From an uncultured Phascolarctobacterium sp. (GTDB lineage Bacteria > Bacillota > Negativicutes > Acidaminococcales > Acidaminococcaceae), in NCBI GenBank assembly GCA_949295115.1, contig CASFJU010000004.1, positions 1 through 64,000 on the forward strand: a DNA stretch of 64,000 nt, given 5' to 3'. A program made the translations under genes and the position numbers. Position 1 is the stretch's first letter. Each line of letters opens with the position of its first letter. Positions 11,977-53,116 of the stretch are shown in pieces. The notes below the pieces were generated by a model. That model made no database searches, was not told the origin of the DNA, and was given only the letters and a program-made list of their open reading frames with translations.

Positions 11977-12017
11977 CAAAACAACCTGCCGCAGCAATGC
12001 AGCAGGTTGTTTTTTAT
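11977..12017 (+). terminator. Terminator after the GNAT gene
   Basis: AACAACCTGC (11980-11989) pairs with GCAGGTTGTT (12002-12011), followed by a T-run. The hairpin is nearly the same as the one behind nifJ. Confidence 0.85.
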
Positions 12018-12060
12018 TTATAACGTCTTGACTAATTTTTACTTTTCAAGCATAATATAA

Positions 12061-12097
12061 AAGCCGTGACTCTTTCCGGTAGGAAGGAGGTGTTTGG
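12061..12097 (+). promoter_or_regulatory. SD-sequestering leader of Fst-type toxin locus 1
   Basis: CTCTTTCC (12070-12077) pairs over eight positions, one of them G-U, with GGAAGGAG (12082-12089), around a GGTA loop. The right arm carries the AAGGAGG ribosome site of the toxin gene, so translation should be blocked in the folded RNA. GCCGTG at 12063-12068 can also pair with CACGGC at 12189-12194, right after the toxin stop. A promoter TTGACT (12028-12033) with CATAAT 17 bp downstream lies ahead. Confidence 0.75.
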
Positions 12098-12187
12098 ATG
12101 ACGACAATAATAATCCCCTTCTTTGTATCTGTCGCAGCAAGTATAGCAGCGTACTATATTTGCAAGTGGCTGGACAGATACTTATAA
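12098..12187 (+). CDS. Fst-family type I toxin, locus 1 (29 aa)
   Basis: A 29-residue hydrophobic peptide: a short polar start, one membrane helix beginning IIIPFFVSVAAS, and a charged end (KWLDRYL). The P-x-FV motif and the WL near the C-terminus match the Fst/par toxin family, which acts at the inner membrane. AAGGAGG lies 7 bases upstream but is held in a hairpin. A copy of the start region (ATGACxACAAT and following) occurs again downstream at 12249-12274, inside a convergent antisense RNA. This is the architecture of the enterococcal par locus. Its paralogue at 20153 shares YYICKWLD. Too short for most gene finders. Confidence 0.8.
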   Translation: MTTIIIPFFVSVAASIAAYYICKWLDRYL

Positions 12188-12202
12188 CCACGGCCAGCAC
12201 AT

Positions 12203-12233
12203 AAAAAACCGGGAGTTGCAGCTCCCGGTTTTT
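12203..12233. terminator. Shared bidirectional terminator of Fst locus 1
   Basis: CCGGGAG (12209-12215) and CTCCCGG (12222-12228) form a perfect stem with A- and T-runs on both sides. It ends both the toxin mRNA and the convergent antisense RNA. Confidence 0.85.
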
Positions 12234-12274
12234 CTTTTGATGTGTCTGAATGACAACAATCAATCCCTCTTTGT
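12205..12274 (-). ncRNA. Antisense antitoxin RNA of Fst locus 1
   Basis: A minus-strand promoter at 12281-12309 should start an RNA near 12274 that ends at the shared terminator, giving about 70 nt. Its 5' part is complementary to the direct repeat copy at 12249-12274 and therefore, with few mismatches, to the start region of the toxin mRNA at 12097-12126. It also overlaps the mRNA 3' end through the terminator. Both contact types are known for RNA II of par loci. Confidence 0.72.
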
Positions 12275-12280
12275 GCTTAC

Positions 12281-12309
12281 ATTATAGCACGGTTCATTAT
12301 AAAAAGCAA
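12281..12309 (-). promoter_or_regulatory. Antisense promoter of Fst locus 1
   Basis: TTGCTT (12304-12309) and TATAAT (12281-12286), 17 bp apart, read on the minus strand just downstream of the thiC stop codon. Confidence 0.75.
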
Positions 12310-12313
12310 AATT

Positions 12314-13618
12314 TTATTTGCGGCAGTTTTTGCACTTATCCAGATATTCGCCGACAATTTTGACTGCGCAGTAATCGCCGCACATGGAGCAGGCTTCTTC
12401 GTCTTCCTTGTTCTTTTTATCTCGGTAGGCCTGCGCTTTAACAGGGTCAATGGCAAGCTCAATCTGCTTTTTCCAGTCCAGTGCCTTGCGTGCCTTCGCC
12501 ATTTCCAAATCCCAGGCAACAGCTTTAGGCAGCCCTTTGGCGATATCGGCCGCGTGGCCTGCAATACGCGCCGCAATTACGCCCTCACGCACATCGTCGA
12601 TATCGGGCAGCCCCAAATGTTCAGCCGGCGTTACATAGCACAAAAAGTCCGCGCCGCTGACAGCCGCCAGCGTACCGCCGATAGCGGAGGTAATATGGTC
12701 GTAGCCCGGCGCAACATCCGTCACTAAAGGTCCCAGCACATAAAACGGCGCGCCGTGGCACACACGTTTTTGCAGCTGCATGTTGGCGGCAATCTGGTTG
12801 TAAGGCACATGGCCCGGCCCTTCCACCATTACCTGCACGCCTTTATCCCACGCACGCTGCGCCAGCTCGCCAAGGTTCAAAAGTTCCTGCAGCTGCGCAC
12901 GGTCGCTGGCATCGGCAAGGCAGCCGGGGCGCAAACCGTCGCCCAAACTAATTGTCACGTCGTATTCGGCGCAGATGTCCAGAATCTCGTCATAATATTC
13001 GTACAGCGGGTTCTCCTTGCCGTTATGCAGCATCCAGCCAGTAATAAAGCTGCCGCCGCGGCTTACCACGTCCATCACGCGCCCTTCGCCGGTCAGCATG
13101 TCCAGCACCTTTTTGTTAATGCCGCAGTGTATCGTCATAAAGTCCGCACCGTCCGCCGCCTGCTGGCGGATAACGTCAAACAAATCCTCTTTCGTCATCT
13201 CCACAACGGCGCCGCGTTTTTTAATCGTTTCCACCGTCACCTGATAAATCGGCACCGTGCCGACCATAACCGTGCTGGCATTAATAATCGCCCTGCGCGA
13301 TGCATCGATGTTGTCGCCCGTGGATAAATCCATCACGCTGTCAGCGCCCGCGTCAATCGCCGCCTGCAATTTTTCAAGTTCCGGCTCCGGGTCGGGAAAG
13401 CTGCTGGACGTGCCGATATTGGCATTGACCTTAACGCTCAGCCCCTGCCCCACGCCGCGCGGCGTTACGTTTTTATGGTTTATGTTAAGCGGTATGGCAA
13501 TCGTGCCTTCGGCCACGCCCTTGCGGATAAATTCTTCCGTCACGCCCTCGTAGGCTGCCACCTGCTTCATCGCTTCGGTAATAATGCCCTGACGGGCAAG
13601 CTGCATTTGTGTTGCCAA
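12314..13618 (-). CDS. thiC: Phosphomethylpyrimidine synthase ThiC
   Basis: A 434-residue radical SAM enzyme that turns aminoimidazole ribotide into hydroxymethylpyrimidine phosphate for thiamine. The family markers are clear: NIGTSSSFPD, STGDNIDASRR, TIHCGI, EGPGHVP and the C-terminal cluster motif CSMCGDYC that binds the 4Fe-4S centre. The start is TTG 13616-13618, with AAGGAAG 7 bases upstream; the next ATG is at 13604-13606. The frame is open further upstream but without a ribosome site. No TPP riboswitch is visible in the 190 bp upstream, which is unusual for thiC. It stands alone, convergent with Fst locus 1. Confidence 0.96.
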   Translation of the reverse strand: MATQMQLARQGIITEAMKQVAAYEGVTEEFIRKGVAEGTIAIPLNINHKNVTPRGVGQGLSVKVNANIGTSSSFPDPEPELEKLQAAIDAGADSVMDLSTGDNIDASRRAIINASTVMVGTVPIYQVTVETIKKRGAVVEMTKEDLFDVIRQQAADGADFMTIHCGINKKVLDMLTGEGRVMDVVSRGGSFITGWMLHNGKENPLYEYYDEILDICAEYDVTISLGDGLRPGCLADASDRAQLQELLNLGELAQRAWDKGVQVMVEGPGHVPYNQIAANMQLQKRVCHGAPFYVLGPLVTDVAPGYDHITSAIGGTLAAVSGADFLCYVTPAEHLGLPDIDDVREGVIAARIAGHAADIAKGLPKAVAWDLEMAKARKALDWKKQIELAIDPVKAQAYRDKKNKEDEEACSMCGDYCAVKIVGEYLDKCKNCRK

Positions 13619-13811
13619 AAAATCACTTCCTTTGCTGTTGATGTTTTTATTATAACCCAAAACCGTGCAACTCTCCACCGCTTTTGCAGATTTTTTAAAA
13701 TTAGTCTTTACGTGTATTTAATAATTATTTTTTATTTTTCACATAAATATCAACATTTACTTACTGATTAGTGCTATAATAAAATCAGCAAAGAAATTAG
13801 GAGGCGATTAT

Positions 13812-14981
13812 ATGTCACGCTTTACTTTACCACGCGATATTTACTACGGGCCGGGCGCCCTTGATGAATTAAAGGTTCTGGCTGGCCATAAAAAAGCCAT
13901 GATTTTAACCGGAGGCAGCTCCATGCGCAAAGGCGGCTTTTTGCAGAAAACCGAAGAAGTTTTGAAAGCCGCAGGCCTTGAAACCGCTCTGTTTGAAGGC
14001 ATTGAGCCTGACCCTTCCATTGAAACCGTTATGAAAGGCGCGCAGGCCATGCGCGAATTTGAACCGGACGTTATCGTCGCTATCGGCGGCGGCTCGCCGA
14101 TTGACGCAGCCAAAGCCATGTGGGTATTTTACGAACACCCCGACAAAACATTCGACGATATTAAAAATCCATTCACTATGCCGAAGCTGCGCAACAAGGC
14201 AATCTTCGTAGCCATTCCGTCCACCAGCGGCACAGCTTCCGAAGTTACCGCCTTTTCTGTTATCACCGATTACAGCACCGGCATCAAATATCCGCTGGCC
14301 GATTTTGAAATTACGCCGGATATCGCCGTTATCGACACCGATATCCCGCTGACGATGCCGCCGAAGCTGACTGCCCACACCGGCATGGACGCTCTGACAC
14401 ACGCCATCGAAGCTTATGTTGCCACTGCGCGCAGCGAATTTTCCGACGCGCTGGCATTAAAAGCCATCGGCGATATTTTTGACAACCTGCTTGACAGCTA
14501 CCACGGCGATAAGGAAGCACGCGGCAAAATGCACATTGCTCAGTGCCTCGCAGGCATGGCGTTCAGCAACGCGCTTCTGGGCATTGCCCACAGCCTGGCG
14601 CACAAAACCGGCGCTATCTTCCACATTCCGCACGGCTGCTGCAACGCAATCCTGCTGCCTGCAGTTATCCAGTACAACAGCCGCGTTGCTATGTCCCGCT
14701 ATGCTGCCATTGCCCGTTACCTCGGCCTGCCCGGCGGCACCGATAAACAACTGACCGATTCGCTGGTTAAAGCTATTATGGAAATGAACAAAGCGCTGAA
14801 CATTGCGCAGACTTATAAAGACAACGGCGTAAGCGAAGAGCTGTTTAAGGAGCACGCCGACGCTATTGCCCACAACGCAGTGCTTGACCCATGCACTTTC
14901 AGCAACCCGCGCCCGATTGACGACGCAGCCATGAAAGAAGTGCTGGCCTGCGCTTACTACGGCAAACCGGTAACTTTCTGA
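13812..14981 (+). CDS. Iron-containing alcohol dehydrogenase
   Basis: A 389-residue group III (iron-type) alcohol dehydrogenase. It shows the NAD(P) loop GGGSPIDAAKAM, the PSTSGTASEVTAFSV region, and the metal ligands in TGMDALTHAIEAY and LAHKTGAIFHIPHGCCN. Relatives are NAD(P)H-dependent butanol or ethanol dehydrogenases that reduce aldehydes in fermenters. The exact substrate cannot be told. An extended AT-rich upstream region has a TATAAT box about 30 bp before the ATG. It is followed at once by its own terminator, so it is monocistronic. Confidence 0.92.
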   Translation: MSRFTLPRDIYYGPGALDELKVLAGHKKAMILTGGSSMRKGGFLQKTEEVLKAAGLETALFEGIEPDPSIETVMKGAQAMREFEPDVIVAIGGGSPIDAAKAMWVFYEHPDKTFDDIKNPFTMPKLRNKAIFVAIPSTSGTASEVTAFSVITDYSTGIKYPLADFEITPDIAVIDTDIPLTMPPKLTAHTGMDALTHAIEAYVATARSEFSDALALKAIGDIFDNLLDSYHGDKEARGKMHIAQCLAGMAFSNALLGIAHSLAHKTGAIFHIPHGCCNAILLPAVIQYNSRVAMSRYAAIARYLGLPGGTDKQLTDSLVKAIMEMNKALNIAQTYKDNGVSEELFKEHADAIAHNAVLDPCTFSNPRPIDDAAMKEVLACAYYGKPVTF

Positions 14982-15017
14982 TTGCCATTTCAATAAAATC
15001 AAAACACTGTAAATTTA

Positions 15018-15048
15018 ATGCCGCTGCCCAAAAAGCAGCGGCATTTTT
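15018..15048 (+). terminator. Terminator after the iron alcohol dehydrogenase
   Basis: ATGCCGCTGC (15018-15027) pairs with GCAGCGGCAT (15035-15044), followed by a T-run. Confidence 0.9.
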
Positions 15049-15268
15049 ATTATTATTTATACACGTTTTTATAAAATCTATTCAGCGCAAACTAAAATTC
15101 CGTCCTAATCATCATGGCATTAATTTTAACTCTTTCAAGCATAAAATGTGTTAAATTAACAATAATTCACACTTTTTACGGCATTTAAGGTTGTTTTTTG
15201 TTGTATTTTGTGCGAAAATATAATAGTAATTGTGTAACTTGTGTTTGGTTAGTTGGGAGTAATTTTAC

Positions 15269-16201
15269 ATGGAACCGGTAAAAAAGCAAAAACGTAAAAT
15301 AAACGATAAATACACTTTAATGCTGATACCGCATAACGGTAAAGAATCAAAAAGCTATAATTTCCGCAGCAGTGTGATTGCCAAAATCGGCATTGTTTTC
15401 TACATTTTATTATTTTTCGGCATTATCGGCGCGTTAAGAACTTCGATAGTAGTTTACGACGCCTACGCCAGCCAGCATGAGCTTGCTGCCTACCGCAGCG
15501 AAAAAGCCGCACAAGAACAGAAACTGGCTGATTTGCAGAAAGAAAACGAAAAAATGCAGCAGGAAATGGCTGAAATTTCCGCACTGGAAAATGAAGTACG
15601 CAAGGAATTGGGCAACAACAAGCAGCCTTCCCGCGGAGGCATTGACCGCAGCCAGTACATGGGCCAGGGCGGCCCGCTACAGGCTGATATAAAAATGATT
15701 GACGTTTATGCTGCACAGACCAAAAACCTGCAGGCAGAAATGCAGCAGAAAAAAGAAAATCTCAACAATCTGCTGGCTCAACTTAAAGAACGCAACGCAC
15801 GCCTTAACGCCACCCCGGACATCTGGCCGACGGCCGGCGGCAGCATTACCTCTTACTTCGGCGGCAGGGCAAACCCGTTCAGCGGTTACGGCTATGATTA
15901 CCATCCCGGCATTGATATCGGCAACGATTACGGCGCACCCATTTACGCCGCTGCAGACGGATATGTTGAATTTGCAGGCTGGTTCGGCGGCTACGGCCGT
16001 TATGTAAAAATCAGCCACGGCTACGGTTACGAAACCGCTTACGGCCATATGTCTTCTATCGCCGTTTCCAGCGGCGACTATGTTAAAAAGGGCGAAGTCA
16101 TCGGTTATGTTGGCAGCAGCGGTTACAGCACCGGCCCGCACCTGCATTACGAAGTTATTATCAACGGGCAGGATTCTGACCCGCTTGAGTTAATACACTA
16201 A
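15269..16201 (+). CDS. Membrane-anchored M23 family peptidase (LytM domain) 1
   Basis: A 310-residue protein with one membrane segment near residues 36-58, an extracytoplasmic coiled coil of Glu/Gln/Lys-rich sequence (about 65-180) and a C-terminal LytM/M23 domain. Zinc ligands fit HPGIDIGNDYG, and the catalytic AYGHM and GPHLHYEV motifs are intact, so it should be an active DD-type endopeptidase or a strong relative acting on peptidoglycan. The layout is that of division or envelope hydrolases. A paralogue with the same architecture is encoded at 53762-54676; both share the sequence YMGQGGP before the peptidase domain. The 287 bp upstream hold an AT-rich promoter region with a TATAAT box and nothing else I can identify. 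Confidence 0.9.
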   Translation: MEPVKKQKRKINDKYTLMLIPHNGKESKSYNFRSSVIAKIGIVFYILLFFGIIGALRTSIVVYDAYASQHELAAYRSEKAAQEQKLADLQKENEKMQQEMAEISALENEVRKELGNNKQPSRGGIDRSQYMGQGGPLQADIKMIDVYAAQTKNLQAEMQQKKENLNNLLAQLKERNARLNATPDIWPTAGGSITSYFGGRANPFSGYGYDYHPGIDIGNDYGAPIYAAADGYVEFAGWFGGYGRYVKISHGYGYETAYGHMSSIAVSSGDYVKKGEVIGYVGSSGYSTGPHLHYEVIINGQDSDPLELIH

Positions 16202-16219
16202 TTTGAAGTTCAATTCATT

Positions 16220-16247
16220 AAACCACGCCTTTAACGGCGTGGTTTTT
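16220..16247 (+). terminator. Terminator after M23 peptidase 1
   Basis: AACCACGCC and GGCGTGGTT form a stem over a TTTAAC loop, followed by six T. Confidence 0.9.
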
Positions 16248-16322
16248 TATTTGCCAAACTGTAAACTCCGTTACAAAATTGCTGCGGCAAAAAGCTATTT
16301 TTCAAAAAATTATCTGCTTTTG

Positions 16323-16350
16323 TTGACAAGCGGCGCAAAACTGCTATAAT
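16323..16350 (+). promoter_or_regulatory. Promoter of the serine operon
   Basis: A perfect TTGACA (16323-16328) and a perfect TATAAT (16345-16350), 16 bp apart, precede the T-box leader. Confidence 0.85.
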
Positions 16351-16356
16351 TACCCT

Positions 16357-16688
16357 ATAAATCAATACAGCCAACACGATGATGGAGAAGCTCTGCGCTA
16401 AACTTGCAGAAAGCCGCCGGTTGATGCGAGGCGGCAGTAAGGCGTAAGTAAGTTCCGCTCCGGAGATGCGAATGACGAATTCGACGGGTACCGCCCGATA
16501 CAGCGTACTAAAGATGGCCGTATGGCAATTTGGGTGGCAACGCGGGTAACTCTCGTCCCATGTGGGATTGAGGGTTTTATTTTTTATCCGCGCAAGCACA
16601 AAGCCGCGGCTGAATTTGGGTGGCACCACGAGATAGAGAAGCTCGTCCCAAGGACGGCTTCTCTATTTTTATTGCAGGAGGTAACAAC
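16357..16688 (+). promoter_or_regulatory. Serine T-box leader with two antiterminator/terminator modules
   Basis: The leader has the usual T-box opening (CGATGATGGAGAAGC) and a distal Stem I loop with GGTTGATGCGAGGC. Candidate serine specifier codons TCC lie at 16454 and 16459. A first T-box core TGGGTGGCAACGCGGG (16531-16546) with CTCGTCCC is followed by a terminator at about 16550-16586. A second core TGGGTGGCACCACG (from 16617) with CTCGTCCC is followed by a very strong terminator (ATAGAGAAGC with GCTTCTCTAT, 16633-16670). Both bulges are TGGC, matching the GCCA end of a tRNA with discriminator G such as tRNA-Ser. Only 57 bp separate the modules, so there is one Stem I for two switches. 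It controls serC. Confidence 0.88.
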
Positions 16689-17762
16689 ATGGAAAGAGTT
16701 TATAATTTTAACGCAGGCCCTTCCGCCATGCCGCTGGAGGTTTTGCAGGAGGCGCAGGCCGAATTTTTAAACTACAAGGGCACTGGCATGGGCATTATTG
16801 AAATGAGCCACCGCAGCCCGGAATACGCCGCCATGCACGCGGAAACCAAAGCGCTTTTGCGCGAGCTGATGAACGTACCTGACGATTACGAAATTTTATT
16901 TATTCAGGGCGGCGGCAGCCTGCAGTTTTTGATGACGGCAGCCAACTTCCACACCAACAAGCGCACAGCTTACGCCAACACCGGCGTATGGGCAAAAAAG
17001 GCGATGGCTGAAGCCAAACGCTTCGGCGAAGTTTACGAAGCAGCATCAAGCGCCGATAAAAACCACAGCTACATCCCCGCCGCGCTTGATATCAAGCCGG
17101 ACACATCTTACCTGCACATCACCGCCAACAACACCATTTACGGCACGGAATGGCAGGACTTCCCCGATGTAGATGTGCCCGTCATCTGCGACATGTCGAG
17201 CGACATTCTTTCCCGCCCGGTGGATGTTACAAAGTTCAACCTTATCTACGCAGGTGCGCAAAAAAATTTAGGACCGGCAGGCGTAGTTATTGTAATAGTT
17301 AAAAAGAACTTTTTAGCAACAGCGCGCAAGGATTTACCGCCGATGCTGAGCTACCAAAACTACGCCGATAACGATTCGCTGTATAACACGCCGCCGGTAT
17401 TTGCCATTTACATGGTCAACAAAACGCTGCACTGGATTAAGGCGCAGGGCGGCATTACCGCTATTGAAGCGCGCAATAAGGAAAAGGCGCAGCTTATTTA
17501 CGATGTTATCGACAACAGCAACGGTTTTTACTGCGGCCACGCGGATAAAGCAAGCCGCAGCCGCATGAACATTACGTTTAATCTGCCCTCGGCGGAAATG
17601 GAAAAGGATTTTATTGCCGAAGGCAAAAAGCGCGGTTTTATCGGCATCGGCGGGCACAGGCTGGTTGGCGGCTGCCGCGTATCAGCCTACAACGCCGTAA
17701 CGGTGGAAGCCTGCAAAGCACTTGCTGATTTTATGAAAGAATACCAAAACCAACACGCATAA
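16689..17762 (+). CDS. serC: Phosphoserine aminotransferase
   Basis: A 357-residue PLP enzyme that transfers an amino group from glutamate to 3-phosphohydroxypyruvate. It opens with [16 protein letters not shown], has QGGGSLQF, and carries the PLP lysine in [13 protein letters not shown]. Late motifs [10 protein letters not shown] and [16 protein letters not shown] fit the family. The ATG at 16689 has a GCAGGAGG site upstream; an in-frame extension to 16620 would run through the T-box terminator and is not real. It is the first gene of the serine operon, 15 bp before serA, and is under T-box control. Confidence 0.96.
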
Positions 17763-17777
17763 ACGGAGGAATGAAAA

Positions 17778-19370
17778 ATGACGATGAGAATTCTTGTAAG
17801 CGACGATGTTAGCGAAAAAGGCGTGGCGCTGCTGCGCGAACATTTTGACGTTGACGTTAAAACCAACCTGCCGACGGAAGAACTTTTGAAAATTATCGGC
17901 GAATACGACGGGCTTGTAACCCGCAGCCAGACGCAGGTGACAAAGGACGTTATTGACGCCGCCAAAAACTTAAAGGTTATCGGCCGCGCGGGTGTAGGCG
18001 TTGACAATATCGACATCCCCGCTGCGACGGCACGCGGCATTGTTGTGCTGAACGCACCGGAGGGCAACACCATTGCCGCCACCGAACACACCATTGCCAT
18101 GATGATGGCGATGACGCGCCACATCCCGCAGGCGCACGCTTCCATTCAGGCAGGCAAATGGGACAGAAAAAGTTTTGACGGCATTCAGGTGCAGGGCAAA
18201 ACGCTGGGCATTATCGGCGTAGGCCGCATTGGCAGCCGCGTAGCCCTGCGCATGCAGGCGATGGAAATGACCACCATCGGCTACGACCCCTACATTACCG
18301 AAGAACGCGCGCATCAGGTAGGCGTGGAACTGGTATCGTTTGACGAACTTTTGGCAAAATCCGACTACATCACCATCCACACCCCGCTGACGAAGGAAAC
18401 GCACAACATCATCGACGCCGCTGCCATCGCCAAAATGAAGGACGGCGTGCGCATTGTCAACTGTGCCCGCGGCGGCTGCGTAGATACCCAGGCGCTTGCC
18501 GATGCCTTAAAGAGCGGTAAGGTCGCAGGCGCTGCCATCGACGTGTACCCCGAAGAACCGCTGACGCCGGACAACAACCCCTTCATCGGCATGCCGCAGG
18601 TTGTGCAGACCCCGCACCTTGGCGCAAGCACCATTGAAGCGCAAATCGGCGTCGCCGTGGACGTTGCTTACGGCGTTATCGACGCGCTTGAAGGCAAACC
18701 GGTTATGACCGCCGTCAACATGGCGCCCATCCCCAAAAGCGTTGCCAGCGTTATCGCACCGTACTTTAAACTGGCGGAACGCATGGGCACCATCGGCATT
18801 TATCTGGCCGAAGGGCCGATTAAGGCTGTGGAAATTGAATACACCGGCGAGCTGGCACAGACGGAAACGCAGGCGCTGACCACCGCCTTTTTGAAAGGGC
18901 TTTTAAACCCGATTCTGCAGGACAGCGTCAACTTTGTCAACGCGCCGGGCATTGCCAAAAAACGCCATTTGCAGGTGCGCGATATAAAATCTCACCGCAC
19001 GGGCTATTTTTCTACCGCAATTAATGTTAAAATAGAGACAGATAAGGGTGAGCATACGCTGACCGGCACATTGTTTGACGGCAAGGAAGCCAAAATCGTG
19101 CAGATTGACCGCTTCCGCCTCGACTTCAAGCCTGAAGGCTATCTGCTGCTTGCCCCGCACATTGATAAGCCTAACATGATCGGGCAGATTGCCACCGTGC
19201 TCGGCAGCGCAGGCATTAACATCAACGGCATGCAGGTGGGCAGCACCGCCATCGAAGGCACCAACTTAATGGCCATCGCCACCGGCGGCGACATTCCCAA
19301 CGACATCATGCTCAAGCTGCGCGGCATCGAAGGCATTATCGATGTAAAACTGATTAACTGTGAGGGATAA
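17778..19370 (+). CDS. serA: D-3-phosphoglycerate dehydrogenase
   Basis: A 530-residue NAD-dependent dehydrogenase, the first step of serine synthesis. The catalytic domains carry the Rossmann motif [13 protein letters not shown], Arg in NCARGGCVD, Glu in YPEEPLT and His in TPHLGAST. An intervening ASB-type domain follows, and the last 80 residues form an ACT domain ([23 protein letters not shown]), the usual place for serine feedback binding. Length is that of the long (type I) form. It lies 15 bp after serC and 2 bp before the phosphatase gene. Confidence 0.97.
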
Positions 19371-19372
19371 AT

Positions 19373-20011: not shown

Positions 20012-20026
20012 AACATCATAAAGCGC

Positions 20027-20059
20027 AAAAAATCCACGGAAAATTCCGTGGATTTTTAT
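20027..20059 (+). terminator. Terminator of the serine operon
   Basis: AAAATCCACGG and CCGTGGATTTT form an 11-bp stem over an AAAATT loop, followed by a T-rich run. Confidence 0.9.
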
Positions 20060-20104
20060 TTTGCATGGCGTTAAAATTATCTTTTCATGAACATATAAAT
20101 CTGC

Positions 20105-20152
20105 TATAATAATAAACGCTGTGACTCTTTCCAGTAGGAAGGAGGTGAACGC
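20105..20152 (+). promoter_or_regulatory. Promoter box and SD-sequestering leader of Fst-type locus 2
   Basis: A TATAAT (20105-20110) is followed by a leader in which CTCTTTCC (20125-20132) pairs with GGAAGGAG (20137-20144) and hides the ribosome site. GCTGTGA (20118-20124) is exactly complementary to TCACAGC (20245-20251) just after the toxin stop. Compared with locus 1, both arms of this long-range pair changed together, which supports the pairing. Confidence 0.75.
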
Positions 20153-20242
20153 ATGGAGAAACCATTAACTGCTTTTTTGGTAGCCGTCGCGGCAGCTGTA
20201 ACAGCGTATTACATCTGCAAATGGTTGGATGGCTTACTATAA
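20153..20242 (+). CDS. Fst-like type I toxin, locus 2 (29 aa)
   Basis: A 29-residue peptide with one hydrophobic helix (LTAFLVAVAAAVTAYY) ending in ICKWLDGLL. It is the close paralogue of the peptide at 12098: the segment AYYICKWLD is identical. The ribosome site AAGGAGG is sequestered in the leader hairpin. The start region (ATGGAxxACCATxAACTGC) is repeated at 20309-20331 beyond the terminator, inside a convergent antisense RNA. It lacks the exact PFFV motif of the Fst family, so the family call rests on the paralogue and on the RNA layout. Confidence 0.75.
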   Translation: MEKPLTAFLVAVAAAVTAYYICKWLDGLL

Positions 20243-20264
20243 GCTCACAGCCAGCCTAAATTAA

Positions 20265-20295
20265 AAAACCGGGAGTAGCCGCTCCCGGTTTTTTT
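20265..20295. terminator. Shared bidirectional terminator of Fst locus 2
   Basis: CCGGGAG (20269-20275) pairs with CTCCCGG (20282-20288), with an A-run before and a T-run after. The stem sequence is the same as in locus 1. Confidence 0.85.
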
Positions 20296-20333
20296 GTTGC
20301 GTGCCCACATGGAACACCATCAACTGCTTTTGT
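20265..20333 (-). ncRNA. Antisense antitoxin RNA of Fst locus 2
   Basis: Starts near 20333 from a strong minus-strand promoter and ends at the shared terminator, about 70 nt. It covers the repeat copy at 20309-20331 and so is complementary to the toxin start region at 20153-20176, blocking translation as in par RNA II. Its repeat differs from that of loci 1 and 3, so cross-silencing is unlikely. Confidence 0.72.
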
Positions 20334-20339
20334 AAGTAA

Positions 20340-20368
20340 AGCATAACACCATTTTACTAAACCGTCAA
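20340..20368 (-). promoter_or_regulatory. Antisense promoter of Fst locus 2
   Basis: TTGACG (20363-20368) and TATGCT (20340-20345), 17 bp apart, on the minus strand. Confidence 0.75.
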
Positions 20369-20423
20369 GTAAAAGAAAGTTAAAATAATATAACGTGCCT
20401 GCAATCCACATTAACCCCTAATC

Positions 20424-20452
20424 TGTCATACGCCGCAAATTTATGGTATAAT
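20424..20452 (+). promoter_or_regulatory. trpS promoter
   Basis: An extended -10 TGGTATAAT (TATAAT at 20447-20452) with a weak -35 TGTCAT (20424-20429) 17 bp upstream. No T-box motif is visible between it and trpS. Confidence 0.6.
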
Positions 20453-20514
20453 ATAATTTAAGTTAAATCTCCGCTTTGGCGGATTGCACGATATTGATAA
20501 AGCGAGGTAAGAAA

Positions 20515-23616: not shown

Positions 23617-23700
23617 TTGGTGCGGATGACAGGAGTCGAACCTGCACGCCGAAGGCGCCAGATCCTAAGTCTGGTGCGTCTGCCAATTCCGCCACATCCG
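23617..23700 (-). tRNA. tRNA-Leu (anticodon TAG)
   Basis: An 84-nt type II tRNA with acceptor GCGGATG/CATCCGC, anticodon loop CTTAGGA, a long variable arm, T-loop GTTCGAC and encoded CCA. Last gene of a four-tRNA operon. Confidence 0.95.
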
Positions 23701-23719
23701 CATATTCATAGATAAAAAA

Positions 23720-23795
23720 ATGGTGATCCACCCGAGACTCGAACTCGGGACACCCTGATTAAAAGTCAGGTGCTCTACCGACTGAGCTAGTGGAT
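23720..23795 (-). tRNA. tRNA-Lys (anticodon TTT)
   Basis: A 76-nt cloverleaf with acceptor GATCCAC/GTGGATC, D-arm AGCTCAGTCGGTAGAGC, anticodon loop CTTTTAA, GTTCGAG T-loop and encoded ACCA. Third in the operon. Confidence 0.95.
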
Positions 23796-23802
23796 CACAT
23801 CT

Positions 23803-23879
23803 TTGGCTGGGGCGGCTGGACTCGAACCAACGCATGCGGGAGTCAAAGTCCCGTGCCTTACCGACTTGGCTACGCCCCA
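23803..23879 (-). tRNA. tRNA-Gln (anticodon TTG)
   Basis: A 77-nt cloverleaf starting TGGGGCG, as glutamine tRNAs with a U1-A72 pair do, with anticodon loop CTTTGAC, T-loop GTTCGAG and 3' end GCCA encoded. Second in the operon. Confidence 0.95.
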
Positions 23880-23885
23880 AAAATA

Positions 23886-23962
23886 TGGGGTGACTGGTGG
23901 GGATCGAACCCACGCGTAACGGAGCCACAATCCGCCGTGTTAACCGCTTCACCACAGCCACC
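23886..23962 (-). tRNA. tRNA-His (anticodon GTG)
   Basis: A 77-nt cloverleaf with the extra 5' G(-1) facing C73, anticodon loop TTGTGGC, T-loop GTTCGAT and encoded CCA. First in the operon. Confidence 0.95.
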
Positions 23963-44760: not shown

Positions 44761-44956
44761 AGCAAATCCCTCCTCTGCTGCCTGCGCTTTTAGTATTCGC
44801 CGCGCCCGCGTTAAATCCCTTTTATCTTAAATGATACTTTTTCACGCATTTTTGTAGGTCTGCAACAGCTTTTTAACTGGAAATACTTCCTATTTTATGG
44901 TATCATTGTAGTTGTATCTTTATGTAATTTTTTATGTCAGTATAAGGCAGGTTATT

Positions 44957-46877: not shown

Positions 46878-47769
46878 GCAGAGCCTTTTAGCCCTGTGGC
46901 AGAGCAACTACATTGCCGGACGCCTGCGTGAGGAATATCCCGGCTGCGAGGTAACGCTTAAAAAAATCGTTACCAAGGGCGACCGCATTTTGGATGTGCC
47001 GCTGGCAAAAATCGGCGATAAAGGCCTGTTTACCAAAGAAATAGAACAGGAGCTTTTGGACGGCACGATTGATTTGGCCGTACACAGTTTGAAGGACATG
47101 CCAACCGTACTGCCGCAGGGGCTGTGCCTTACGGCGATTACCGAGCGCGCCAACGCCGGCGACGCTTTTGTAAGCAACAAATACAACAGCATCGAAGAAA
47201 TGCCGGAAGGCAGCGTACTGGGCACCAGCAGCCTGCGCCGCCGCGCGCAGTTTTTGGCAAAACGCCCGGATTTAAAAATTGTTGACCTGCGCGGCAATGT
47301 CGATACCCGCCTGAAAAAGCTGGACGAAGGACAGATGGACGCCATTATTCTGGCAGCAGCCGGGCTGACCCGCCTTGGGCATGAAGACAGAATCAAACAA
47401 ATCATCCCGCAGGATTACTGCCTGCCCGCTGTCGGACAGGGCGCGCTTGCCATTGAATGCCGCAGCGATAATTTTCAGGTCCGCCAGATGCTGGACTTTT
47501 TAAACGACACGCCCACCAAACAGGCGACCGATGCCGAACGTGCCTTTCTGGGGCTTTTAGAAGGCGGCTGCCAAGTTCCTATCGGCGTGCACGCCGAAGT
47601 TAAAGACGGCCATTTAAACATGACGGCTGTAATTGCCTCGCTGGACGGCAGCACGCTGCTGCGCGATACGGCAGAAGGCGAAGCAACCGACGCTGTAGCT
47701 ATCGGCCGTGCTTTGGGACAAAAAATGCTTGATAACGGCGGTAAGGAAATTCTTGCCGCTATCCTGTAA
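46849..47769 (+). CDS. hemC: Hydroxymethylbilane synthase (porphobilinogen deaminase)
   Basis: A 306-residue enzyme that joins four porphobilinogens. It has IGTRQSLLALWQS, AVHSLKDMPT with the catalytic Asp region, SSLRRRAQFLA, RGNVDTRLKKL and the dipyrromethane-binding Cys in EGGCQVPIG. Starts 29 bp inside hemA and ends 12 bp before the fused cobA-hemD gene. Confidence 0.97.
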   Translation: MKTNLIIGTRQSLLALWQSNYIAGRLREEYPGCEVTLKKIVTKGDRILDVPLAKIGDKGLFTKEIEQELLDGTIDLAVHSLKDMPTVLPQGLCLTAITERANAGDAFVSNKYNSIEEMPEGSVLGTSSLRRRAQFLAKRPDLKIVDLRGNVDTRLKKLDEGQMDAIILAAAGLTRLGHEDRIKQIIPQDYCLPAVGQGALAIECRSDNFQVRQMLDFLNDTPTKQATDAERAFLGLLEGGCQVPIGVHAEVKDGHLNMTAVIASLDGSTLLRDTAEGEATDAVAIGRALGQKMLDNGGKEILAAIL

Positions 47770-47781
47770 GGAGAGGAATAT

Positions 47782-49302
47782 ATGACAAAACAAGGAAAAG
47801 TTTACCTTATCGGCGCAGGCCCCGGCGACCCCGGTCTGCTTTCCATCAAAGCCATGGAGTGCTTAAAGGCGGCGGACGCCGTTGTGTATGACCGTTTGGC
47901 TGACCCGCGCATTTTAAGCTACGCCCGCCCCGATGCAGAAATGGTTTATGTTGGCAAAGCCAGCGCCAACCACACTATGCGCCAGCCGGATATCAACAAA
48001 CTGCTGGTTAAGCTGGCAGCCGAAGGCAAAACCGTGGCACGCCTTAAGGGCGGCGACCCGTTTGTATTCGGGCGCGGCGGCGAAGAAGCGATTGAACTTT
48101 TAGAAGCAGGCCTGCCCTTTGAATTTGTACCGGGCGTAACCAGCGCCATTGCCGTTGCCGAATACGCCGGCATCCCCGTAACGCACAGGCATGTGGCAAC
48201 CAGCTTTGCCGTTATCACCGGGCACGAAGACCCCACCAAAGGCGAAAGCACCATCAACTGGTCCGGCCTTGCCACCGGCGTTGATACGCTGGTATTTTTA
48301 ATGGGCGTGGAAAACATCCCCAAAATTACGCAAAAGCTGATTGAAAACGGACGCGCCGCCGATACACCGGCAGCAGTTATCCGCTGGGGCACGCACCCCG
48401 AACAGCAGACCCTTGTTACCACCGTTGGCAGCGCCGCTGCCGATGTTGCAGCCGCAGGGCTGAAACCGCCCGCCATTTTTATTGTGGGCAACGTGGTAAA
48501 ACTGCGCAACCAGCTGCGCTGGTACGACAACAAGCCGCTGTTCGGCAAAACCATTGTTGTTACCCGCGCACGCGCGCAGGCCAGCGAACTGACTAAACAG
48601 CTGGAAGCGGAAGGCGCAAAAGTTATTGAAGCGCCGGCCATTAAAATTGTGCCGCCTGCCGATTATGCGCCGCTTGATGAAGCAATCAGCAAAATTGATA
48701 CCTATAAATGGCTGGTACTTACCAGCGCCAACGGCGTTAAAGCCTTTTTTGCACGCTTAACCGCGGCAAGCAAGGACGCACGCGCACTGGCAGGCATTAA
48801 AATCGCCGCTATCGGCTGCGGCACTGCCAAAGCACTGGCAAACTGCGGCTTAACCGCCGATTTGGTACCCGCAACCTACAAAGCCGAAGAACTGGCAGAA
48901 GCCATGAGCGCAGAACTTGCCAAAGGCGACAAAGTGCTGCTGCCCCGCGCCAAAGAAGCGCGCGAGGTACTGCCGGAAACGCTGCGCAAACTGGGCGCAG
49001 AAGTAGACGTTATTACCGCCTACGAAACCGTCGCAGTTTGCGATAACGCCGACGAACTCATCGCCGCGCTGCAAAATAAAGAGGTGGACATGGTTACCTT
49101 CACCAGCTCCAGCACCGTTACCAACTTCCTTAAAGTGCTGGGCGGCAAAAAAGAGCTGCTTGAAGGCGTTGCCTGCGCAGCCATCGGCCCCGTAACCGCC
49201 GCCACCTGCAACAAAAACGGTATAACACCCGCCGTAACCGCCGGTACATTTACCATCGCCGGTTTAACGGATGCCATAAAAAGCTATTACACTAAGGAGT
49301 GA
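47782..49302 (+). CDS. cobA-hemD: Fused uroporphyrinogen-III methyltransferase / uroporphyrinogen-III synthase
   Basis: A 506-residue fusion. Residues 1 to about 245 are a CobA/SUMT domain (LIGAGPGDPGLLSIKAMECL, GGDPFVFGRGGEE, PGVTSAIAVAEYAGIPVTHR) that methylates uroporphyrinogen-III to precorrin-2. From about 255 on is HemD (VVTRARAQASELTKQLEAEGAKV, VLTSANGVKAFFARL, DMVTFTSSSTVTNF), which closes hydroxymethylbilane to uroporphyrinogen-III. This fusion is common in Firmicutes. It places precorrin-2 synthesis, and thus siroheme or B12, in the same operon as the common heme steps. Confidence 0.95.
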   Translation: MTKQGKVYLIGAGPGDPGLLSIKAMECLKAADAVVYDRLADPRILSYARPDAEMVYVGKASANHTMRQPDINKLLVKLAAEGKTVARLKGGDPFVFGRGGEEAIELLEAGLPFEFVPGVTSAIAVAEYAGIPVTHRHVATSFAVITGHEDPTKGESTINWSGLATGVDTLVFLMGVENIPKITQKLIENGRAADTPAAVIRWGTHPEQQTLVTTVGSAAADVAAAGLKPPAIFIVGNVVKLRNQLRWYDNKPLFGKTIVVTRARAQASELTKQLEAEGAKVIEAPAIKIVPPADYAPLDEAISKIDTYKWLVLTSANGVKAFFARLTAASKDARALAGIKIAAIGCGTAKALANCGLTADLVPATYKAEELAEAMSAELAKGDKVLLPRAKEAREVLPETLRKLGAEVDVITAYETVAVCDNADELIAALQNKEVDMVTFTSSSTVTNFLKVLGGKKELLEGVACAAIGPVTAATCNKNGITPAVTAGTFTIAGLTDAIKSYYTKE

Positions 49303-49307
49303 TTAAG

Positions 49308-50288
49308 ATGGGCTTCCCCATTTACCGTCCGCGCCGCACGCGCGCAACCGCGAACCTGCGCAGCATGATCCGCGAAAACAAACTTTCCGTTGAGGATTTG
49401 ATTTATCCGCTCTTTGTCGTTCCCGGCAAAAATGTTAAAAACGAAATTGAATCCCTGCCCGGCAACTACCACTGGTCGCTTGACCGCCTGCCGGAAGTGC
49501 TGGACGAAATCGTTGACCTGAAAATCCCTGCCGTTATTTTATTCGGCATCCCTTCTTATAAAAACGCTACCGGCAGCAGCGCCTGGGATATGGAAGAACC
49601 AGTACAGCAGGCCTGCCGCCTGATTAAGGAAAAATACCCCGACCTTGTAATTGTTACCGACGTATGCCTGTGCGAATACACCGAGCACGGCCACTGCGGC
49701 GTTTTGGAAAACGGCTGCACCGTCAACAACGACGCTACCCTGCCGCTGCTCGCCAAAGTTGCCGTATCCCACGCCAAGGCAGGCGCCGATATCATCGCCC
49801 CTTCCAACATGATGGACGGTTATGTTCAGGCTATCCGCGCTGCGCTGGATGAAAACGGCTTCAGCCATGTTTCCATTATGGCTTATTCAGCTAAATACGC
49901 ATCTTCTTACTACGGCCCGTTCCGCGCCGCTGCCGATTCCGCTCCGAGCGCAGGCGACCGCAAAGGCTACCAGATGGACCCCGCCAACAGCGACGAAGCA
50001 CTGCGCGAAGTTGAACTGGACATTGAAGAAGGCGCAGATATCGTTATGGTTAAACCGGCGCTGGCATTTATGGATATCATCCGCCGCGTAAAGGACACCT
50101 TTAACCGCCCGCTGTGCGTTTACAATGTCAGCGGCGAATACGCCATGGTTAAAGCCGCAGCCCAGAAAGGCTGGATTGACGAAAAACGCATTGTTATGGA
50201 AACGCTGACCGGTTTTAAACGCGCCGGCGCGAAAATGATTATTACCTACCACGCTCTTGACGCAGCACGCTGGCTGCGCGAAGAATAA
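49308..50288 (+). CDS. hemB: Delta-aminolevulinic acid dehydratase (porphobilinogen synthase)
   Basis: A 326-residue TIM-barrel enzyme that condenses two ALA. The zinc site is intact ([18 protein letters not shown]), and the two Schiff-base lysines are in [16 protein letters not shown] and [17 protein letters not shown] at 49308 follows AAGGAG by 8 bases. It sits after cobA-hemD with a few bp between and before hemL. Confidence 0.96.
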
Positions 50289-50298
50289 GGAGGCAGCC

Positions 50299-51597
50299 AT
50301 GCAGCACGCAAAATCCGAAGCGGCTTTTGAAGAAGCCAAACAATATATCCCCGGCGGCGTTAACAGCCCCGTGCGTTCGTTCCGCAGCGTCGGCGGCATT
50401 CCGCCGATTATCGCAGGCGGCTGCGGCAGCAAGCTGACCGACATCGACGGCAACGAATACATTGATTACGTTTTAAGCTACGGCCCGCTGCTTTTGGGTC
50501 ACGCTCATCCGGTTGTTACCGAAGCCATCAAAAAGGCTGCCGAAAAAGGCTCGTCCTACGGCGCACCGACGCTGGCTGAAACCGAGCTTGCCAAACTTGT
50601 TTGCCGTTTAGTGCCTTCCATGGATATGGTACGCATGGTAAACAGCGGCACCGAAGCAACCATGAGCGCACTGCGTCTGGCACGCGCTTACACCGGACGC
50701 GACAACATTGTTAAATTCATCGGCTGCTACCACGGCCATCACGACAGTCTGCTTGTAAAAGCAGGCAGCGGTGCAGCAACGCTCGGCGTACCCGACAGTC
50801 CGGGCGTGCCGAAAAATGTTGCTGCCAACACCATTACCATTCCGTTCAACGACGAAGCGGCACTGGAAGAAGTTTTCCGCACGCAGGGTGAAACCATTGC
50901 CGCCGTTATTATGGAACCGACGCCCGGCAATATGGGTTTAGTTCTGCCGAAGGACGGCTACCTTGCCAAAATCCGCGCCATTACCAAAGAATATGGCGCG
51001 CTCCTCATCTGCGATGAAGTTATGAGCGGCTTCCGTTCCTGTCAGGGCGGCTCGCAGGCACTGTACGGCATCGACCCCGATATCACCTGCCTGGGTAAAG
51101 TTATCGGCGGCGGCCTGCCGGTAGCTGCTTATGGCGGCAAACGTGAGATTATGGAAAAGGTTGCGCCGGTCGGCCCGATGTACCAGGCCGGTACTTTAAG
51201 CGGCAACCCGCTGGCTATGGCAGCAGGCATTGCCAACCTTACTTATATGGAAGAACATAATGTGTGCGCCACGCTGGAAAGCCATGCAGCAATCCTCGTC
51301 GGCGGGTTGGAACGTGCGGCAGCCAAAGCAGGCGTGCCCGTTCAGTGCCACCGTTTAGGCTCGATGTTTACCGTTTTCTTCAGCGATAAACCCGTTACCG
51401 ATTACGCATCGGCCTGCGCCAGTGATTTGGACGCTTTCCGCATTTACTTCCACAGCATGCTGGAACAGGGCATTTACCTGCCGCCCTCCCAGTTTGAAAC
51501 CAACTTCATCTCGCTGGCACATACGCCGGACGACATTGCCAAAACCATTGCCGCCGCTGAAAAAGCATTTGCAGATGTAGCCACAAGCAAAAAATAA
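50299..51597 (+). CDS. hemL: Glutamate-1-semialdehyde 2,1-aminomutase
   Basis: A 432-residue PLP enzyme that makes ALA. It opens [20 protein letters not shown], has [31 protein letters not shown] and the PLP lysine in [21 protein letters not shown] at 50299 follows AAGGAGG; an upstream reading to 50257 would overlap hemB and is unlikely. It ends the operon with a strong terminator. Confidence 0.97.
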
Positions 51598-51610
51598 AAC
51601 CCAAAAATTA

Positions 51611-51653
51611 AACGCCATCAGGATTAGCCAAAATTATTCCTGATGGCGTTTTT
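51611..51653 (+). terminator. Terminator of the tetrapyrrole operon
   Basis: AACGCCATCAGGA (51611-51623) and TCCTGATGGCGTT (51638-51650) form a 13-bp perfect stem followed by a T-run. Confidence 0.92.
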
Positions 51654-51679
51654 ATCTTTTCTTTTATATATAAATATGC

Positions 51680-51721
51680 TATAATTATGAACGCCTCCCA
51701 TTTAGAAAGGAGGTGTTACCA
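51680..51721 (+). promoter_or_regulatory. Promoter box and SD-sequestering leader of Fst locus 3
   Basis: TATAAT at 51680-51685. ACGCCTCC (51691-51698) pairs over eight positions, one G-U, with GGAGGTGT (51709-51716), which contains the ribosome site of the toxin gene. The stem differs in sequence from loci 1 and 2 but hides the same element. Confidence 0.72.
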
Positions 51722-51823
51722 TTGGAGGTATTTAATCGTATCGCAGAGCATCTGCTTGCTCCGTTGTTTGTTGGGATAGCAGTCGCCTACTTTTCATGGT
51801 GGCTGAATAATCACAAACACTAA
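51722..51823 (+). CDS. Fst-family type I toxin, locus 3 (33 aa)
   Basis: A 33-residue peptide with TTG start, GGAGG 8 bases upstream. It has a short amphipathic start, a membrane helix LLAPLFVGIAVAYFSWWL and a charged tail (NNHKH). The AP-x-FVG segment and the WL near the end match the enterococcal Fst toxin (which has IAPIFVG) more closely than the other two loci. The start region (GTTACCATTGGxGGTATTTAA) recurs at 51908-51934 beyond the terminator within a convergent antisense RNA. Expected to act at the inner membrane when the antisense RNA is lost. Confidence 0.82.
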   Translation: MEVFNRIAEHLLAPLFVGIAVAYFSWWLNNHKH

Positions 51824-51835
51824 AAAGCAGAACAA

Positions 51836-51869
51836 GCCGTGTAGTTGCAGCTGCACGGCTTTATTTTAT
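51836..51869 (+). terminator. Terminator of the Fst locus 3 toxin mRNA
   Basis: GCCGTG (51836-51841) pairs with CACGGC (51854-51859), followed by a T-rich run. Confidence 0.75.
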
Positions 51870-51874
51870 TTATG

Positions 51875-51936
51875 AAAAAAGGACGTGTTGCAGCACGCCC
51901 TAATTTCGTTACCCATTGGGGTATTTAACCGTTTGT
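51875..51936 (-). ncRNA. Antisense antitoxin RNA of Fst locus 3
   Basis: Starts near 51936 and ends at its own terminator (GGGCGTG with CACGTCC, then six T, 51875-51900 on minus), about 60 nt. It carries the complement of the repeat at 51908-51934 and therefore of the toxin start region. In contrast to loci 1 and 2 it does not share the toxin terminator. Confidence 0.7.
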
Positions 51937-51942
51937 ATAATT

Positions 51943-51971
51943 ATAATAAATCTAATACTGTTTTTTGTCAA
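51943..51971 (-). promoter_or_regulatory. Antisense promoter of Fst locus 3
   Basis: A perfect TTGACA (51966-51971) and TATTAT (51943-51948), 17 bp apart, on the minus strand, directly next to the 3' end of the HD-domain gene. Confidence 0.75.
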
Positions 51972-51979
51972 GCGATAGC

Positions 51980-53116
51980 TTATTTAACAACTACATTTTT
52001 AACAGCCTGACGGATTTTATCCATGCCGTTTTTGGTGGAAGCAAGGCTGTCGATGTACATCATAGAGTACTGCGCGCCGATGTAGTTGCGGAAGCGGTTG
52101 AAATGTTCGCCTTCCAGACCTGCCTTGCTCATGCCGTAATCTTTGGCAGCAATTTCTTTAAGGATTGCCACGGATTTCTGGCAGGCCGGGCCGCTGAGTA
52201 CGAAGTCATGGTCGCCGAGGCTGGTGATATAGCCCTCCTGCTTATGCGGAGTCGGAATGGTGTCTTTGGAAGTAACAAGGCCGAGTTTTTCGGCGTCCTT
52301 ACCGGCAATTACAGCGGCTGCTTTCAGGTAACCGGCAACAATCTGCTCGTCCTTGCCGCTGGGAATGGTATGCGCACAAGCCTGTGCAACAATTTCTTCA
52401 ACCGGGAAGCCGCGGTAAATAACTTCGGCGATGCTGAAAATGTGGTGCGCACCGGTGCCTGCAATCTGATATTCGGTCAGCGAGGACTGGTCTTTCTGCC
52501 ACTGGAACACCAGCGGTTTTGCCAGATCGTGCAGTGCCTGTGCGGCTATTACAATGTCATGGCTGAGGGCACTGTTGAACAGGCCGGTATAGGTGTTGTA
52601 AATGCCTTCGGAAATTTGCAGGTTGGCTGCAGTATGCGTTGCAAGCCCGCCCGGATAAGCGTGGTGGCTGGCGTAACCACTGCCCGGCGCAGAATAAAAC
52701 GGCTGCGGCAGGCCGCCGTTATACGGAGGCATAAAGTTTTCCAGCGAGGTTTTGCTGCTGTCAAGGAGTCCCGCTGCTACCAGCTTATTATAAACGGTGC
52801 GTTTGCTGCCCGGCAGCTGGTAATTGTTCATAAATGTCGGCACGGGGTTGTTGATGATGTCCATCGTCATGCGTGCCAACGAACGGTCCTGAATAGTTTT
52901 AACAGCGTCTTTAATCTTCTGGTAAGAAAGCTGCACCAGTTCGGAATTGGCTGCCAGCGTAACAGCGTCCGGCAAATTGTTGTAAGCGGCTGCCTTGACT
53001 TTAGCGCCTGCCGCAAAGCTCATGCCCGGCATGTTCAGCATGGCTGCGCCGATAGCGGCACCGGCAGTCATCTGCAAAAATTTTCTGCGCGACATTTTGT
53101 CGTTTAAATTCGTCAT
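51980..53116 (-). CDS. Tat-exported HD-domain protein
   Basis: A 378-residue protein with a twin-arginine signal peptide (SRRKFLQM at residues 9-16, then a hydrophobic Ala/Gly stretch, cleavage near residue 36). The middle resembles an HD-type metal phosphohydrolase: HHAYPGGLATHT (151-162), ALHDLAKPL with the HD pair at 196-197, AHH at 223-225, and His249. The order fits the HxxGGLxxHT...HD pattern of cytoplasmic HD enzymes such as YhaM-like nucleases. Export through Tat suggests folding with metal in the cytoplasm and work in the periplasm. Substrate unknown. It stands alone, with its own terminator not seen before the Fst antisense promoter. Confidence 0.75.
   Translation of the reverse strand: MTNLNDKMSRRKFLQMTAGAAIGAAMLNMPGMSFAAGAKVKAAAYNNLPDAVTLAANSELVQLSYQKIKDAVKTIQDRSLARMTMDIINNPVPTFMNNYQLPGSKRTVYNKLVAAGLLDSSKTSLENFMPPYNGGLPQPFYSAPGSGYASHHAYPGGLATHTAANLQISEGIYNTYTGLFNSALSHDIVIAAQALHDLAKPLVFQWQKDQSSLTEYQIAGTGAHHIFSIAEVIYRGFPVEEIVAQACAHTIPSGKDEQIVAGYLKAAAVIAGKDAEKLGLVTSKDTIPTPHKQEGYITSLGDHDFVLSGPACQKSVAILKEIAAKDYGMSKAGLEGEHFNRFRNYIGAQYSMMYIDSLASTKNGMDKIRQAVKNVVVK

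Follow-up and report, generated by a model that had tools for sequence, protein, structure and literature searches.

The stretch of DNA analysed (hereafter the window) comprises 64,000 nucleotides from a Phascolarctobacterium sp. (assembly GCA_949295115.1, contig CASFJU010000004.1, positions 1-64,000 of the forward strand) and carries three small loci, at about 12028-12309 (locus 1), 20082-20368 (locus 2) and 51657-51971 (locus 3). At each of them a promoter is followed by a leader hairpin over the ribosome site, an open reading frame (ORF) of 29-33 residues, a terminator, a second copy of the locus' own toxin start and a convergent minus-strand promoter; judged from the sequence, this is the layout of a par/Fst type I toxin-antitoxin locus. 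The parts described in a first-pass annotation of this DNA were recovered where it had placed them or a few bases away, and the ORFs were confirmed (29 amino acids from ATG, 29 from ATG and 33 from TTG). The loci had also been called three paralogs, which holds for loci 1 and 2, close paralogs of a type designated CKWLD after its peptide motif, but not for locus 3, which belongs to another toxin clade; the genome has three more copies of the CKWLD type outside the window.

The toxin-mRNA promoter of locus 1, recognised by consensus match alone, lies at 12028-12056 on the plus strand (TTGACT, 17 bp, CATAAT), with an expected start at about 12063. The expected mRNA 5' end (12063-12068) forms the 5' arm of an upstream helix whose partner is 12189-12194, and is followed on the same strand by a leader hairpin covering the Shine-Dalgarno sequence (CTCTTTCC/GGAAGGAG, 12070-12089), the proximal direct repeat, which is the toxin start region (12090-12126), and the CKWLD-type ORF of 29 amino acids (12098-12187, ATG), predicted to encode MTTIIIPFFVSVAASIAAYYICKWLDRYL. 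An intra-ORF hairpin spans 12125-12181 (12125-12133 with 12173-12181, plus inner pairs). GCTG of the Trp-Leu codons (12169-12172) can pair with CAGC (12195-12198), immediately 3' of the upstream-helix 3' arm; this pairing (12169-12198), designated helix X, is of 4 bp in locus 1. A bidirectional terminator on both strands (12203-12233) is followed by two minus-strand features, the distal repeat, expected to form the 5' part of the antisense RNA (12242-12274), and the antisense promoter (12281-12309; TATAAT, 17 bp and a poor -35 box, TTGCTT).

At locus 2 the plus-strand toxin-mRNA promoter (20082-20110) has a weak -35 box and TATAAT. The upstream-helix 5' arm and leader hairpin together occupy 20118-20144 of the plus strand (arm 20118-20124, pairing with 20245-20251; hairpin 20125-20144), and are followed by the proximal direct repeat (20145-20176) and a CKWLD-type ORF of 29 amino acids (20153-20242, ATG; peptide MEKPLTAFLVAVAAAVTAYYICKWLDGLL). 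Helix X (20223-20256) joins GGTTG (20223-20227) to CAGCC (20252-20256) by 5 bp, one of them G-T. A bidirectional terminator on both strands (20263-20295), the distal repeat in the expected antisense RNA (20301-20331, minus strand) and the antisense promoter (20340-20368, minus strand; TATGCT, 17 bp, TTGACG) complete the locus.

Locus 3 has, on the plus strand, a toxin-mRNA promoter with a weak -35 box and TATAAT (51657-51685), a leader hairpin CCTCC/GGAGG covering the Shine-Dalgarno sequence (51694-51713), a proximal direct repeat (51716-51739) and an Fst toxin ORF of 33 amino acids (51722-51823, TTG start), which contains a PXXXG motif (PLFVG) and also WWL. No upstream helix was recognised by eye at this locus, where the stem-loop over the Shine-Dalgarno sequence is present. 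The par layout proposed for all three loci stands in its convergent promoters, repeats and leader hairpin, but a bidirectional terminator common to both RNAs is found at loci 1 and 2 only; locus 3 has two separate terminators, one for the toxin mRNA (51834-51867, plus strand) and one for the antisense RNA (51875-51901, minus strand). The loop letters of the latter (GTTGCAGC) are identical to those of the former, so that the loops would still be complementary. The distal repeat, again expected in the antisense RNA, lies at 51909-51932 and the antisense promoter (TTGACA) at 51940-51971, both on the minus strand. A 17-bp spacer, which had been given for all three antisense promoters, can be drawn at each, but at locus 3 it needs TATTAT, the exact TATAAT there lying at 20 bp. 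At sequence level, convergent sense and antisense promoters are found at all three loci.

Distal repeats and coding constraint

When the locus 1 peptide was used as query, the window genome (1.7 Mb) yielded five CKWLD loci, of which two lie in the window and three on other contigs, and one further weak match (E 0.16); the locus 3 peptide found itself alone, giving one Fst locus and six modules in total. For comparison, 132 candidate loci were assembled (40 from a search of the order, 12 from plasmids and phages and 80 from a named collection), from which 5 without motif or truncated and 1 at a contig edge were removed, the remaining 126 yielding 99 non-redundant loci.

Toxin start regions and downstream regions were aligned in all combinations of loci. 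The mean score among the 99 loci was 18.7 for the own repeat and 9.5 for other loci, compared with 10.35 for the largest of 5000 permuted means and 9.5 for the reverse-complement control. The own distal copy ranked first in 76 of 98 loci and in the top three in 88 when L108, whose extracted region appears to hold a second toxin, was for that reason left out; with L108 included it ranked first in 49 of 99 and in the top three in 89. In the 12 plasmid and phage loci retrieved, the own repeat was always in the top three (12/12). For the five CKWLD loci of the window genome, the 5x5 matrix had diagonal scores of 17-21 and off-diagonal scores of 7-13, and computed duplex energies were lowest for the own pair in 6/6 rows and 6/6 columns when the Fst locus was included, the narrowest margins being 2.9 kcal/mol (C2 column) and 4.0 kcal/mol (Fst row). 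At two syntenic sites the start region and its distal copy have been altered together (window versus genome G015 at locus 1 and versus G014 at locus 2), with own scores of 15-19 and crossed scores of 7-10. As the distal repeats track their own toxin starts, the six modules look insulated from one another at the level of these comparisons.

Duplication being a frequent source of direct repeats, and neighbouring toxin copies being listed in relatives, the distal repeat could be regarded as a relic left when the toxin start was duplicated in tandem, playing no part in antisense control. This is improbable in the extreme, as the repeat follows changes in its own toxin start and is succeeded by promoter-like sequence on the minus strand (best antisense promoter: mean of 2.04 mismatches of 12, compared with 3.80 in shuffled sequence; 80 loci). 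The corresponding means for the best sense promoter were 2.59 and 4.14 (80 loci).

Protein constraint was weak in codons 2-7, which lie in the putative address (proportion of nonsynonymous differences, pN, 0.53; of synonymous differences, pS, 0.71). In codons 8-26 pN/pS was 0.28 (26 sequences, 325 pairs, the divergent loci G004, G041, G055, G016:C36 and G017:C39 being omitted), and the codon-level conservation on which the first-pass annotation had staked its proposal is therefore present.

Fold of the CKWLD mRNA

The fold was assessed in an alignment (A3) of 29 distinct mRNAs from 32 loci in three genera of the same family, from which the five divergent loci named above and three that failed the motif filter were omitted. 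RNAalifold, which is blind to pseudoknots, returned the upstream helix, the leader hairpin in another register, a long intra-gene hairpin and the terminator, with changes on both sides in 16 of 38 pairs. In a hand-built structure that includes helix X, 96.7% of 1352 cells were paired across the 29 mRNAs and 20 of 47 pairs were changed on both sides, neither measure being reached in any of 500 shuffles, and slid versions of this structure were at most 46.1% paired. For helix X alone, both-side changes were seen in 1 of 5 pairs and 92.4% of cells were paired, the outermost pair failing in 10 of the 29 mRNAs. The intra-gene hairpin was kept in a wider set of 98 loci (7.74 of 9, permuted maximum 6.59).

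Pairing of the Trp-Leu codons with downstream bases was found over 5 bp in 85 of 97 loci (permuted maximum 61) and over 6 bp in 57 (permuted maximum 32); a search anchored at the stop codon, which misses loci with long tails, gave 77 of 96 (permuted maximum 58). The wobble base of the Leu codon is mirrored downstream: A by T in 16 of 17 loci, C by G in 7 of 9, G by C in 29 of 42 (with 7 more as G-T) and T by A in 17 of 25 (with 2 more as T-G). In 67 of the 85 loci having helix X, it was bordered by an upstream helix no shorter than 6 bp, compared with a maximum of 31 when leaders were exchanged (60 permutations) and 10-18 with displaced segments, and the gap between the two helices was zero in 54 of 74. 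The upstream helix begins 6 or 7 bases past the -10 box, approximately at the expected transcription start, in 40 of the 60 loci with a recognised box. Ranking by this helix alone was of little use because the leaders are alike: the median rank was 21 of 97, and the own pairs had a mean of 17.3, compared with 16.44 for the highest permuted mean.

Since the upstream helix and helix X cross, they would form an H-type pseudoknot which places the mRNA 5' end beside helix X, and the covariation supports such a pseudoknot as the one common fold of CKWLD mRNAs. It may further be proposed, tentatively and with doubt outweighing confidence, that across the CKWLD branch a single conserved pseudoknot, together with the intra-gene hairpin, stacks the mRNA 5' end on the Trp-Leu-codon helix, that part of the peptide motif is conserved for reasons of RNA structure and that the knot acts as a timer for when the unprocessed mRNA turns translatable. 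Pseudoknots in such mRNAs are not new, as two were reported from probing of the SprA1 RNA (PMC8383071), which may or may not correspond to the upstream helix and helix X. In the single staphylococcal locus examined, an annotated Fst locus of Staphylococcus epidermidis, an upstream helix of 8 bp and a helix X of 8 bp lie one base apart. No statement of this pair of helices was met in the par and SprA1 accounts covered, the primary structure papers lying outside them. According to a commentary, the primary transcript of fst has no identified cleavage, and its activation by a conformational switch is put forward there as speculation (PMC11295053); the covarying helices supply exact base pairs for mutation.

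Family placement and proposed action

The locus 3 peptide scored 29.9 bits against NF033608 (cut-off 26), which places it with the Fst toxins proper, and matched PepA1, the peptide of SprA1/SprA1AS, among solved structures (E 0.00025). PF13955, which had been suggested as the membership test, was rejected for that purpose, being passed by none of the three peptides; locus 3 alone appears, at 14.4 bits versus a cut-off of 36. Loci 1 and 2 had no listed match to NF033608 or PF13955, and no solved-structure relative of the CKWLD peptides was found at E up to 10. A PHROGs search with five of the peptides returned weak matches to holins as well as families whose function is unknown, and PADLOC, searched with three, gave no match. 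The Fst/Ldr superfamily is described as having a Trp between the transmembrane helix and a charged C-terminus and, in most members, a P/D/S/TXXXG motif (PMC7472228). The Trp is present in all three peptides; at the motif site locus 3 reads PLFVG, loci 1 and 2 read SVAAS and AVAAA (with no G) and some paralogs read SVMAG or SVTAG.

Among relatives in the class, L175 and L176 contain CKWLD and pass NF033608, and the peptide of L176 shares 97.1% identity with a Megamonas plasmid peptide that carries an Fst family annotation. The Rfam family RF02442 (SpF66_sRNA), which covers pneumococcal F66 (the same RNA as srn502/spd_sr109), had matches with E no higher than 1 in 10 of the 14 CKWLD sources, above the gathering threshold of 42 in three (L057, 49 bits; L055, 46 bits; L061, 42.6 bits). 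It aligns over its full length with CKWLD relatives, contains helix X as a nested stem and has a consensus reading UGC AAA UGG CUA GAC, that is C-K-W-L-D; although typed as a small RNA, it holds the CKWLD frame and so appears to describe a toxin mRNA. Its printed structure line differs from the fold proposed here in being without the upstream-helix pseudoknot. Together with Srf-27, spd_sr109 has been described as making up a pair homologous to par, in which it is the toxin mRNA (PMC9812572), Srf-27 having been listed as an Fst-family antitoxin by similarity in a study in which it was undetected (PMC6212727), and lowered fitness in nasopharyngeal colonization has been reported for F66 mutants (PMC3395615). 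Loci 1 and 2 are tied to par/Fst by L175 and L176, by these RF02442 matches and by the S. epidermidis Fst locus in which both helices are found.

Two other placements were considered. As loci 1 and 2 reach the cut-off of no curated toxin model, the peptides might be small membrane proteins of an ordinary kind and their antisense RNA a plain regulator, with no toxin-antitoxin pair involved; this is quite unlikely given that locus 3 passes NF033608 and matches PepA1, that the layout has the par parts and that RF02442 connects the CKWLD RNAs with a described toxin mRNA. Alternatively, loci 1 and 2 could be of the Clostridium difficile type I toxin kind (NF047374) rather than par/Fst. Those toxins resemble the present modules in that they are small peptides of the membrane whose antisense RNAs are convergent (PMC6563280), and at an E limit of 1 NF047374 was matched by 10 of 28 CKWLD peptides (best 6.1e-5). 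Loci 1 and 2 themselves had no listed match and the best score printed among relatives was 21 bits, far under the cut-off of 60, while the CKWLD-bearing L175 and L176 pass the Fst model and RF02442 is matched; the family was rejected for loci 1 and 2 and this placement is considered highly unlikely.

Very probably, loci 1-3 are chromosomal par-type type I toxin-antitoxin modules in which the CKWLD mRNA is knotted and the start region serves as an address. The layout, the coding constraint, the tracking of toxin starts by the repeats and the covariation of the helices are shown by the sequences themselves. Several results weigh against this reading. None of the protein family cut-offs tried is reached by locus 1 or locus 2, and comparison of the CKWLD and Fst profiles was weak (hhalign probability 2.8%, E 0.016). 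RF02442 had no listed match in 4 of the 14 relatives, did not reach its gathering score in the window genome (at most 24.2 bits, locus 2 18.9, locus 3 17.2, versus 42) and also matched 2 of 14 control genomes below cut-off at the same E limit. The own repeat fell outside the top three in 10 of 98 loci. As regards the fold, the count of pair types was reached by 69 of 500 shuffles, a 5-bp helix X occurred in 5 of 13 PXXXG-type Fst loci, which is not above chance, and the permutation tests ignore phylogeny.

In the proposed mechanism, the plus-strand mRNA would encode a membrane-helix peptide of 29-33 residues, presumably toxic, and its leader hairpin would mask the ribosome site. Convergent RNAs and an antisense block of initiation are likely: the minus-strand RNA, carrying a copy of the toxin start, can pair with its own mRNA and would thereby close the start region, and at loci 1 and 2 both RNAs would additionally share the terminator hairpin. 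In a CKWLD mRNA the 5' end would pair with the bases after the gene and, adjoining this, the Trp-Leu codons with the next bases; we infer that the 5' end is protected by this knot, which would keep the mRNA untranslated until it opens. With the variable start region as address, the six modules of the genome should not silence one another, and we infer both their transcription and their insulation in the cell. Six apparently insulated modules in one genome of this size would constitute a natural test of antisense specificity.

The par locus of pAD1 from Enterococcus faecalis (RNA I/RNA II, Fst) has, like the loci described here, convergent promoters, direct repeats and a 5' stem-loop over the Shine-Dalgarno sequence and, like loci 1 and 2, an upstream helix at the 5' end and a shared terminator (PMC7472228), a likeness drawn from the published description and not from the pAD1 sequence. 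Differences from pAD1 par are that the present loci are chromosomal, that the CKWLD peptides are without the proline of PXXXG and that the terminators of locus 3 are split. Cross-protection between pAD1 par and a chromosomal paralog is reported to be absent (PMC7472228). The par parts, the upstream helix and this missing cross-protection are thus already known from that account; what sequence comparison adds here is a view of how far the CKWLD branch extends, its connection with RF02442 and comparative support for one shared fold.

Copy number, distribution and neighbourhood

A profile built from the five CKWLD peptides of the window genome hit 14 of the 63 genomes searched within the order, and a wider profile hit 159 of 380 Negativicutes genomes from 31 of 102 genera, these being matches to the peptide and not to the layout. 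A Megamonas funiformis plasmid record is already annotated 'Fst family toxin'. With such peptides also present in other Bacillota, a Negativicute host is not unusual, and the rarity first supposed is not borne out; a large par-type branch lies mostly outside the curated peptide models. NF033608 matched 23 of 379 genomes of the class, 12 of them above cut-off. Among the best 80 of 441 confirmed stretches in the named collection, the nearest relatives were from Phascolarctobacterium and other carriers included Veillonella, Selenomonas, Lachnospiraceae and Oscillospiraceae. Matches at E up to 1 were found in 64 of 72,556 plasmid records (best E 1e-3), 40 of them Enterococcus, and in 7 of 50,697 phage records (best E 1e-2); among the 60 plasmid matches listed, none has an annotated feature beneath it in the gene table used, which is incomplete. 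Searches of one open-access library found no paper that brings together Fst, type I toxin-antitoxin systems and Negativicutes and nothing relevant on the CKWLD motif; type I toxin-antitoxin systems were met together with Lachnospiraceae in 4 papers and with Veillonella in 2. Ldr/Fst-like sequences have been reported in Clostridium bolteae (PMC6563280) and may already include CKWLD members.

Comparison of the intervals in related genomes, as had been suggested, recovered the sites of loci 1 and 2, the matching flanks being 84.6-98.4% identical; on two occasions there was little or no match on one side. The neighbouring genes that exceed an NCBIfam cut-off are thiC (after locus 1), trpS (after locus 2) and hemL (before locus 3), and none of the remaining three neighbouring genes reaches one. 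The conservation of chromosomal sites next to housekeeping genes speaks against a simple role in plasmid maintenance.

Some variants were observed among the relatives. Pairs of neighbouring CKWLD matches, a few hundred bases apart, occur in several Negativicute genomes (e.g. G156:C78 and G180:C188). In the Fst locus of a relative (L050, G018:C12, at about 84064) the terminator and antisense unit seems to be followed by another of its kind in tandem, as though by duplication of the antitoxin half. L044 (G016:C36) and L043 (G017:C39) belong to a HYIIKWIDG subfamily with an extra stretch between stop codon and terminator, and L045 (G035:C19, at about 16739) is a match in which neither a start region nor a leader could be recognised, by appearance a decayed copy. 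Elsewhere in the window, four minus-strand tRNA genes (Leu, Lys, Gln and His) are clustered at 23618-23961.

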